A DNA stretch of 64,000 nt from Rhizobiaceae bacterium (lineage in GTDB: Bacteria; Pseudomonadota; Alphaproteobacteria; Rhizobiales; Rhizobiaceae), in the NCBI GenBank assembly GCA_026981655.1, contig JALSIJ010000046.1:1-64000 (forward strand), given 5' to 3'. Shown here piece after piece: positions 22,494 to 25,392 of this stretch (position 1 is its first letter; the number at the start of each line of letters is the position of its first letter). Below the pieces are notes generated by a model, which did no database searches, was not told the DNA's origin, and saw nothing but the letters and a program-made list of their open reading frames with translations. The position numbers and the translations under genes are program-made.

Positions 22494-24262
22494 ACCAATG
22501 CCTTGCCCTTCTCGTCAATGGCCGAGCCAACGGCCTCGTCGGTTGCCTCATCCGGTAAAAGCATTTCATTATGCGCTTTGCCCGACGGGATCATTGGGAA
22601 GCAATTGGCCAATTGAGCCACGCGGCAATCGAAAATCACCGGTAGTTTCGCATCAATCATTTCCATAATTGCATCATCAAGTTCAGCTGGTTTGCTACAC
22701 CTGATACCAATACCGCCATAGGCTTCTGCGAGTTTCACAAAGTCCGGCATCGCCTCAACATAGGTGTGCGACAGCCGGTTTCCGTGCAGCAATTGCTGCC
22801 ACTGGCGCACCATGCCCATATATTGATTGTTCAGAATGAAAATCTTGATCGGCGCATCATGCTGAATAGCCGATGACATTTCCTGAATGCACATCTGAAT
22901 GGATGCATCACCGGCAATATCGATCACCAGCGCATCTGGGTGGGCAATCTGCACCCCAAGTGCCGCCGGCAAACCGTAGCCCATAGTGCCAAGGCCACCA
23001 CTGGTCATCCAGTGATTAGGCTCTTCAAATTTAAGAAACTGTGCCGCCCACATCTGATGCTGGCCAACTTCGGTGGTGAAATAGGTTTCACGGTCTTTGG
23101 TCAATACATTAAGACGCTCCAGCGCATATTGCGGCATGATCACTTCTTGGGAGTTTTTATAGGCGAGTGAATCCCGCTCTTTCCACTTATCAATTTTTGA
23201 CCACCAGGATTTGATTGCAGCGGCGTCTGGCTTTTTCGAGTTTGCCCGCCACAATCGAACCATATCCTCCAAAACATGCGCGACATCGCCAACAATCGGC
23301 ACATCCACCCGCACAATCTTGTTAATCGACGAAGGGTCAATATCAATGTGTATCTTCTTTGAATTGGGCGAAAACGCATCAAGCCTGCCGGTAATACGGT
23401 CATCAAACCGGGCGCCAATACATAACATCACATCGCATTCATGCATCGCCATGTTGGATTCGTAAGTGCCATGCATGCCAAGCATTCCAAGCCAATTATC
23501 ACCGCTGGCCGGATAGGCACCCAGCCCCATCAAAGTTGAAGTTATCGGAAAGTTGGTCAATTCAACCAGCTGGCGCAACAATTGACTGGCCTGCTGTCCA
23601 GAATTGATAACACCACCACCGGAATAAATAATCGGCCTTTTTGCAGAAACCAAAAGCTGAACTGCATCCAGGATTTTATCGGCATCACCGACAACTTTTG
23701 GATTATAGGTTTTATGTTCGCCGGTGCTGGGCCCGCGATACGTGCCGGTTGCAAATTGCACATCCTTGGGAATATCAACAACAACTGGGCCAGGGCGGCC
23801 GGAACGCGCCACATAAAATGCCGTATGCAATACTTCGGCAAGATCATTCACATCTTTCACCAGCCAGTTGTGCTTGGTGCAAGGTCGGGTAATGCCGACC
23901 GTATCGCATTCTTGAAAAGCATCGGATCCGATCAAGGATGTTGGCACCTGACCGGTAATACAAACAAGCGGAATTGAATCCATCAATGCATCTTGCAAAC
24001 AGGTCACCGCATTGGTGGCTCCAGGGCCAGAAGTCACAAGCATCACACCGGTTTTTCCGGTTGAACGGGCATAGCCCTCTGCCGCATGCCCGGCACCCTG
24101 CTCATGGCGCACGAGCACATGATTGATCGCTTCCTGCTGGTGCAGTTCATCATAAATTGGAAGCACAGCACCGCCTGGATAACCAAAAATATCTTTGACA
24201 CCATTATCAACCATAGCCCGCAATACCATTTCCGCGCCGGTCATTTCCTCAGCTTTAGTCAT
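22490..24262 (-). CDS. ilvB: Acetolactate synthase large (catalytic) subunit
   Basis: This 590-residue ThDP enzyme has the three usual domains. The N-terminal domain has the catalytic Glu in [19 protein letters not shown] and [10 protein letters not shown]. The FAD-binding middle domain includes [16 protein letters not shown]. The C-terminal ThDP domain has [15 protein letters not shown] through [10 protein letters not shown]. It condenses two pyruvates, or pyruvate and 2-oxobutyrate, as the first common step to Val, Leu and Ile. It is expressed from a leader with attenuator and couples to the transporter by a stop/start overlap. Confidence 0.97.
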
Positions 24263-24341: not shown

Positions 24342-24363
24342 AAAAAAGGCCCCCGGGGGAGCC
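24342..24363 (-). terminator. Attenuator terminator of the ilvB operon
   Basis: On the minus strand GGCTCC pairs with GGGGCC around CCCG and is followed by six T. It lies between the leader peptide (stop at 24400) and ilvB (start at 24262), the position and form of a Rho-independent attenuator. Just before it, GCGCGCA can pair with TGCGCGC in the end of the leader ORF, giving a possible alternative fold. Confidence 0.85.
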
Positions 24364-24399
24364 TGAATGCGCGCCATCACTCGCAAAGGTTATCCACCT

Positions 24400-24444
24400 T
24401 CACGCCAGCGCGCACACCACCACTACAAGAATTTCAATTTTCAT
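24400..24444 (-). CDS. Leader peptide of the ilvB operon
   Basis: A 14-codon ORF reads MKIEILVVVVCALA. Codons 3, 5, 6 and 7-10 are Ile, Ile, Leu and four consecutive Val, and Leu is at 13: eight branched-chain codons counting Leu13. A purine-rich AGAGAG lies upstream. Ribosome stalling on the Ile-Leu-Val run when charged tRNA is scarce would alter folding of the RNA and prevent the terminator at 24342-24363. This is the classical ilv leader design and needs no protein function of its own. Confidence 0.88.
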   Translation of the reverse strand: MKIEILVVVVCALA

Positions 24445-24543
24445 CACAAAGCTCTCTGTTACCAATAAAGCCTAGACCGCGTTACCAAATGCGTCAACAG
24501 GCAAGCAGAATTTTTACCCAATTTGTCGCAATCGGCATTAAGC

Positions 24544-25392
24544 TCACGCGCAGACCTGGTTTCTACCCTGATTTTTTGCCTCGTAAAGCCGCATATCCGC
24601 CGCTTTGATCAAGTCCCGGTCATCCTCCAGATCTTTGCTACTAACGGCTACACCGATACTGATCGTCGGTTGAATAACAACATTACCCACCGAAATTCTC
24701 AGCTTTCTCACCGCATCACAATAACGCTGAGCAAATGGACCAATTTGCGCATCACTGGCAAATGGAGCAATTACCGCAAACTCCTCACCACCAATACGGG
24801 CCACAACATCGTGCTCCCGCGAAAGGTCCATGAGCACGCGCGCAACCTCTTTCAACACAATATCACCGACATCGTGTCCGTGGGTATCGTTGATTTGTTT
24901 AAAGTGGTCCAAATCCAGAATAAGCAGTCCAAGCGGTTTGTCGATCCGTCTGAACTCTTTCAAAAACTCGCTTAAAACCTCGTGGAAATATCGTCGATTA
25001 TAAAGAGATGTGAGTGAATCTGTTGCGGCCTCAACAGCCAGCATGTCTGCGCGTTTTTCTTGTCTTTTGGTTGCATCTGCTTGAAATTTGATAATCGGCA
25101 TAACCACCAGCAACCCACCAACCATTGTGGCGGCAATAAAAAATGCCGAAAGAGTCAACTGATGAAAAGTCATAGACAACGTCTCAGAAACCGGCCCCGA
25201 GCTATCAGATACAATTTCATCCACCGAACGGCTCAACCGAAAATAAATATACAGTGCCGACCCCAACGAAAGGGTGACAGCAGCCGTATAAATTCCATAG
25301 GCAAGTTCAGGCAGGTTATTAAGCTTGATCCGCAATACATCCCCCAAGCAACAAAACTGTTTGTGTTTTCCCTCGCACCAGGGAAAAACCAT
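24544..25392 (-). CDS. Membrane-bound diguanylate cyclase (GGDEF)
   Basis: The frame gives 282 residues from 25392. A TTG at 25335 with GGGGGATG upstream may be the true start, because the first 19 residues look non-coding. Two membrane helices (about 30-52 and 80-100) flank a short periplasmic loop. The GGDEF domain carries SLTSLYNRRYF, LDLDHFKQINDTHGHDVGD and the active-site RIGGEEFAVI. The product is c-di-GMP. An RxxD inhibitory site is not obvious ahead of GGEEF. It is the only c-di-GMP gene here; signal and target are unknown. Confidence 0.88.
   Translation of the reverse strand: MVFPWCEGKHKQFCCLGDVLRIKLNNLPELAYGIYTAAVTLSLGSALYIYFRLSRSVDEIVSDSSGPVSETLSMTFHQLTLSAFFIAATMVGGLLVVMPIIKFQADATKRQEKRADMLAVEAATDSLTSLYNRRYFHEVLSEFLKEFRRIDKPLGLLILDLDHFKQINDTHGHDVGDIVLKEVARVLMDLSREHDVVARIGGEEFAVIAPFASDAQIGPFAQRYCDAVRKLRISVGNVVIQPTISIGVAVSSKDLEDDRDLIKAADMRLYEAKNQGRNQVCA

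Follow-up and report, generated by a model that had tools for sequence, protein, structure and literature searches.

The ilvB leader peptide of Alphaproteobacteria is already part of the literature. It was met, as a previously described element, in the alphaproteobacterial screen of Corbino et al. 2005, and the passage of that report concerned with it gives the credit to Vitreschak et al. 2004 (PMC1273637). In Caulobacter crescentus, attenuation at the ilvBN leader is credited in a passage of a later paper to Tarleton et al. 1994 (PMC4117421). Corynebacterium, which belongs to a different phylum from the organism studied here, also has a branched-chain amino acid leader before ilvB; this attenuator or upstream ORF of ilvBNC (the ilvB-II motif) is likened to ours on the basis of partial descriptions. 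The trp attenuator of Sinorhizobium, rnTrpL/peTrpL, is described in a passage of PMC10117765 as acting in trans. Passages of two further papers (PMC2965389 and PMC8632094) hold nothing that bears on the leader described below, and the ilvB motif in the latter comes from Leptospira.

Here we describe an ilvB leader in a 64,000-nucleotide stretch of DNA from a member of the Rhizobiaceae (the window). By description it fits the alphaproteobacterial ilvB leader peptide, in its position before ilvB and in its conserved branched-chain amino acid codons. The example itself is ordinary. Its value lies in the apparently missing antiterminator and in a link to transporters.

The ilvB leader and operon in the window

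The features of the locus are collected in Table 1. The leader peptide MKIEILVVVVCALA is encoded by 14 sense codons, from the ATG at 24444-24442 to the TGA at 24402-24400. They include two Ile and two Leu codons and four Val codons in tandem (GTA GTG GTG GTG). The terminator consists of the stem-loop AGGCTCC-CCCG-GGGGCCT (24364-24347) and six T (24347-24342), the first of which also closes the stem. A first-pass annotation had noted the leader ORF, a GC hairpin and six T before ilvB, and this stands when the minus strand is read directly. The locus thus has a short ORF rich in branched-chain amino acid codons and an intrinsic terminator between that ORF and the operon. The P1 and P2 hairpins of the leader give it a branched shape. 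From the promoter-like boxes the transcript is expected to start near 24462. The same strand carries a diguanylate cyclase (GGDEF) gene (24544-25392), whose end lies some 50 nt ahead of the ilvB promoter.

Table 1. Positions of the leader and operon features in the window.
Feature	Position	Strand	Basis or detail
-35-like box TTGACG	24492..24497	(-)	read from sequence; 17-nt spacer to -10
-10-like box TAGGCT, weak match	24469..24474	(-)	read from sequence; absent from consensus-scan list
SD-like AGAGAG ahead of leader start	24452..24457	(-)	read from sequence
Leader ORF MKIEILVVVVCALA, 14 codons, with TGA	24400..24444	(-)	direct reading and relatives
Regulatory codons ATT CTT GTA GTG GTG GTG	24415..24432	(-)	
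P1 hairpin	24367..24415	(-)	arms 24415-24407 and 24375-24367; fold
P2, enclosed by P1	24404-24396 with 24390-24382	(-)	fold
Intrinsic terminator	24342..24364	(-)	stem 24364-24358 with 24353-24347; U tract 24347-24342
ilvB, acetolactate synthase large subunit, 590 aa	22490..24262	(-)	NF006581, 1182 bits
EamA-family transporter, 306 aa	21573..22493	(-)	Pfam PF00892
ilvN, acetolactate synthase small subunit, 190 aa	20996..21568	(-)	NF008864, 220 bits

The gene order ilvB-EamA-ilvN is tight. The ilvB gene opens with the ATG at 24262, the GTG start of the EamA gene overlaps the ilvB stop by 4 nt, and ilvN begins 4 nt past the EamA gene. The three genes would be read as one transcript.

Within the window alone the leader does not stand out. 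A terminator scan found three sites where 3.5 are expected by chance, and the stability of the 121-nt leader fold is modest (z -1.55; 13 of 200 shuffles fold as well). Rfam release 15 gave no match to the leader at the gathering score, a tRNA being the sole match in the window. Since terminator count and fold are at chance or only mildly stable, it is the comparison with relatives that decides the case.

Conservation of the leader, its hairpin and its operon

We looked for ilvB in the window's own genome and in 60 relatives, 61 genomes together, and counted 60 of them; G008 gave a weak match only. An Ile/Leu/Val-rich leader ORF with a terminator precedes ilvB in 50 of the 60, namely in 36/36 within the family and 14/24 in the other families of the order, although these counts may be biased by a choice of leader ORFs that favoured Ile/Leu/Val runs and by the later re-choice of proximal starts. 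Terminators were located by script. The remaining 10 genomes, set aside by our judgement of the scan output, have no such leader within about 800 nt upstream of ilvB. All three amino acids occur in 47 of the 50 leader runs, so the Ile/Leu/Val conservation on which the first-pass annotation depended is found in relatives. Comparison of sequences confirms that the conserved leader, of apparent attenuator type, is real.

The leader peptides of four species of the window's genus are MKIEILVVVVCALA, MKIEILVVVMCALA, MKFGILVVVRCALA and MQFDIIVVVRSALA. The first three Val are kept in all four, and the fourth is replaced by Met, Arg and Arg in the other three species. The earlier count of two Ile, two Leu and four Val is therefore right for the window, but its fourth Val is not conserved; four Val in tandem appear peculiar to the window's species among the four seen.

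The codons of the run are strongly biased. The Val codons of the family's runs are GTA 39, GTG 36, GTC 1 and GTT 0, as against GTA 56, GTG 472, GTC 737 and GTT 250 in 35 of the 36 ilvB genes (L056 is excluded because its ilvB reads in two frames). The Leu codon CTG accounts for 1 of 43 in the family leader runs versus 748 of 1511 in the ilvB genes. GUA and GUG are decoded by tRNA-Val(UAC), and both the UAC and the GAC forms of tRNA-Val were found in the genome among the 30 of 35 tRNA loci read. The bias towards GTA and GTG is what a sensor tuned to one tRNA-Val isoacceptor would look like.

The motif TTGAC lies upstream of the leader ORF in all 36 family leaders. In 29 of them it is separated from the start codon by 30-37 nt, which would put the transcript start at or near the leader start codon. 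These 29 resemble the Sinorhizobium trpL, which a passage of PMC10117765 describes as leaderless. The gap is 47-55 nt in the other seven, from the window's genus and three more genera, and these carry a purine-rich SD-like stretch (judged by eye).

P1 enclosing P2 between the run and the terminator is common to the 36 leaders that were aligned, the 14 more divergent of the 50 having been omitted by eye. Across these 36, 11 of the 16 pairs of P1/P2 change on both sides. The whole-structure covariation score is 0.288 against 0.178 for shuffled alignments and was reached by 0 of 500 shuffles; kinship alone can lift such scores above shuffles, and slid versions of the structure, which preserve kinship, score only 0.05-0.12. 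The model built from these leaders (R1), which are mainly of Rhizobiaceae type, matches the window's leader at 49.4 bits, although that sequence belongs to the training set. Of 249 genomes from the order, 134 match at E<=0.001, a number that takes in genomes of the training set. In a class-wide scan with only 15 candidates scored per genome, so that a missing match carries little weight, 11 of 289 genomes matched: the window's own, G314, G381 (36.3 bits, same order) and eight at 22-26 bits. A separate R1 search of the 10 leaderless ilvB loci gave nothing above 11.9 bits. One match near dnaA (L165, 28.9 bits) was taken as false, there being no branched-chain amino acid leader at that place.

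Some genomes hold a second R1-type leader. At L162 (G717:C22:33000-37500) and L163 (G683:C2:19600-24000) the start of a second ilvB-like gene follows ilvB-ilvN, and each ilvB has an R1-type leader of its own (37.6/35.9 and 37.0/28.3 bits), with about 2.7 kb between the two. Two more genomes carry second leaders at G032:C1049:7961-8050 (86.8 bits) and G151:C67:78421-78510 (90.7 bits), of which the former precedes a second ilvB gene (66% identical).

With the EamA protein as query (E<=1e-52), 25 of 198 family genomes gave a match. In at least 24 of the 198 the EamA gene is flanked by ilvB and ilvN, all three on one strand, a lower bound since the ilvB-ilvN interval was inspected only in the 25 matched genomes; some of the 24 loci have one further gene between, and the sole exception among the 25 is G202. 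By our count of the listing the arrangement is spread over 14 of 106 genera. A tandem EamA pair occurs in G002 and G064, which are among the 24, and in G001 from outside the sample. Judged by gene order, the EamA gene in the ilvB operon is uncommon yet recurrent. The first-pass annotation was thus correct in placing a transporter in the operon, and its view of this as unusual content has to be softened. No report of the association was found in the titles and abstracts of the open-licence PMC literature.

A related leader before Bcr/CflA-type transporters

Three strong R1 matches lie away from ilvB (96.1, 75.9 and 74.1 bits), and all three precede a gene for a Bcr/CflA-type MFS transporter with TIGR00710 above the cut-off. 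A pattern-based contig scan with the three MFS proteins gave 51 loci, 14 of which are close orthologues (65-100% identity) from Pelagibacterium, Devosia, Paramesorhizobium, Roseibium, Nisaea and an uncultured member of the Rhodospirillaceae. An R1 match lies directly upstream in 13 of these 14, twelve at 62.8-96.1 bits and one at 22.2; the upstream region of the fourteenth is cut off at a contig end. The other 37 loci have no significant R1 match. Val leaders of the ilvB type precede MFS genes at L164, L166, L168, L170-L174 and L176-L183, which are spread over several genera and no fewer than two orders.

Two or three adjacent Val codons are kept in 12 of the 13 MFS leader peptides, and an Ile or Leu touches the Val run in three of those 12. 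Only Val is apparently conserved in the MFS leaders, in contrast to Ile, Leu and Val in the ilvB leaders. In Pelagibacterium xiamenense (G598) the MFS leader scores 74 bits and the genome's own ilvB leader 46 bits, which argues against recent local duplication, although the training of R1 mainly on Rhizobiaceae-type leaders favours such an outcome. The association of leader and MFS gene was not found in the same literature, again at the level of titles and abstracts.

Look-alike leaders, recognized by eye, were seen before distant MFS relatives in Rhodobacteraceae and Afifellaceae (L185-L188), where R1 has no significant match. In two of them from Afifellaceae (L186 and L188, 50% identity) the P1 base may, by eye, pair into the terminator arm, and such a pairing would be a classical antiterminator.

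Antitermination, rival readings and known systems

The first-pass annotation called the locus a complete attenuator working by classical ilv/leu attenuation. The codon-biased leader and the terminator before ilvB agree with this; the classical competing structure was not found. Eleven of the 50 leaders were folded free, with a ribosome stalled at each run codon and with one at the stop codon, and the terminator probability was 0.92-0.99 throughout, so the mutually exclusive structures implied by that reading do not appear on folding and the description as complete is not supported. Equilibrium folding is not decisive here, because antiterminators act during transcription. For this reason a further test took nascent RNA that stops short of the 3' arm, with the terminator 5' arm pairing upstream. 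The median gain at the best stall was -3.7 kcal/mol over 50 leaders. Six leaders do better stalled than in either the free or the stop state by at least 2 kcal/mol, and none by 5. At -16.9 the leader L041 seems strong, yet its free and stop states reach the same level (-16.3). Among E. coli controls the same test gave trp -1.2, leu -2.2, his -4.0, thr -12.0 and phe -12.4 kcal/mol, and for the branched-chain leaders ilvL -13.4 and ivbL -14.5 (ivbL free -10.7). The trp leader of E. coli has a textbook antiterminator, and the weak trp, leu and his values mean that the energy test misses weak ones.

Complementarity between the leader and the terminator 5' arm was scored against shuffles. The ilvB leaders have a mean z of +1.05, with 8/50 negative and 0/50 at p<0.05, which leaves an antiterminator formed between P1/P2 and that arm unsupported. 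The trp leaders of the same family gave a mean z of -1.24 in the same test (20/22 negative, 5/22 at p<0.05), a difference with a Mann-Whitney p of 7.5e-10 when relatedness is ignored. The trp set comes from 30 of 60 matches, of which 22 had a script-found terminator (L229 and L250 doubtful) and eight were dropped; an earlier, stricter run had nine testable leaders with a mean z of -0.87, two of them at p<0.05. All seven E. coli leaders were negative, four at p<0.05. With dinucleotide shuffles the ilvB mean z is +0.55 (0/50), and the E. coli leaders are again 7/7 negative, 2/7 at p<0.05. The 13 MFS leaders are likewise not complementary to the terminator arm (mean z +0.62). Extension of the P1 base into the arm was below chance (0/50 at p<=0.05), as was pairing to either terminator arm, the 3' arm included (0/50 at p<0.05), both of these being scored without a positive control. 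No conserved antiterminator was found by these tests. It may be absent, though a weak one is possible.

In collecting the trp leaders we observed that the TrpE(G) match in the window's genus holds one in-frame TGA (G000:C244:8062-10197 and G003:C99:15537-17672). One stop is present also in G022 and G080, and the gene may be split.

The leader probably belongs to the alphaproteobacterial ilvB type of ribosome-mediated transcription attenuator and controls ilvB-EamA-ilvN, because the leader is conserved, the codons of the run are biased, P1/P2 covaries and the class has been described before. When amino acids are ample the leader ORF would be translated to its stop, the terminator would form and most transcripts would end near 24342. 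When charged tRNA-Val (chiefly the GUA/GUG isoacceptor), tRNA-Ile or tRNA-Leu is scarce, the ribosome would stall in the I-L-V-V run, P1/P2 would refold and RNA polymerase would read through into ilvB. What speaks against the attenuator reading is that no antiterminator competing with the terminator was found in the 11 folded or the 50 complementarity-tested leaders, and that 10 of the 60 genomes with ilvB have no such leader before it. A chance ORF followed by the plain terminator that closes the GGDEF gene upstream would suit the position of that gene and the chance-level count of regional terminators. It was rejected on conservation (50 of 60) and covariation, to which the codon bias adds, and is scarcely credible.

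One way to keep a classical attenuator is a weak or kinetic antiterminator, in which GGGC on the 5' strand of P1 would pair with GCUC of the terminator arm once a stalled ribosome opens P1. Most of the 36 aligned rows allow this four-pair helix (81.9% of cells), L020, L034 and L056 are able to extend it (by eye), and a helix as weak as that of E. coli trp could escape the energy test. Both-sided change is seen in only one of its four pairs, the GGGC position reads TGGC or TTGC in the window's own genus, and the stall gains and complementarity scores given above also tell against it; we consider it possible but doubtful. Alternatively, regulation may act on P1/P2 itself. On this view the ribosome or some other factor would bind or position this structured RNA, and the RNA would relieve termination without pairing to the terminator. 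P1/P2 covaries, is widespread in the order and recurs almost letter for letter ahead of an unrelated transporter gene in several genera, and the terminator arms are less complementary to the leader than shuffles are (a comparison without a positive control). Against this reading, recent transfer or shared codons may explain why P1 is nearly identical in both uses, and we know of no precedent for intrinsic terminators relieved without terminator pairing; we consider it unlikely. The leader might also be mainly the source of a trans-acting small RNA or peptide, by analogy with the Sinorhizobium rnTrpL/peTrpL precedent as described in part of PMC10117765, and its terminated RNA would be about 120 nt. 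Cis control already accounts for the position before ilvB and for the codons of the run, and a mainly trans-acting role is improbable.

For the attenuator reading the consequence is that either a weak antiterminator has been overlooked or a stalled ribosome can relieve intrinsic termination without one. The occurrence of the leader in both settings suggests that a ribosome-sensing leader passed from one kind of gene, biosynthetic or transporter, to the other. More speculatively, and against our own expectation, the ilvB leader could be a distinct, portable ribosome-sensing class, in which P1/P2 relieves a free-standing terminator without an antiterminator and which is tied to transporters by the EamA insertion and the Val-centred MFS leader. 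A Val-centred leader before an efflux-type transporter is a clue to the substrates of two uncharacterised transporter groups.

The comparison with known systems places the window's leader as follows. In the Caulobacter crescentus leader, by the description in PMC4117421, Ile and Val codons stand in tandem and the terminator is Rho-independent, as in the window; the passage there speaks of ilvBN and the figure legend of ilvIH, and neither names a transporter. The E. coli leaders ilvL (of ilvXGMEDA) and ivbL (of ilvBN) share with the window the runs of branched-chain amino acid codons, the terminator and the branched-chain amino acid operon. They differ in being longer (32 codons) and in their strong upstream pairing to the terminator arm at the best stall. 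The rhizobial trpE(G) attenuator (trpL/rnTrpL), from the same bacterial family, has a short leader and a terminator like the ilvB leaders; the trp leaders tend to terminator-arm complementarity, whereas the ilvB leaders do not. Because the alphaproteobacterial ilvB leader is already in print, the leader of the window is a further example of a described type.
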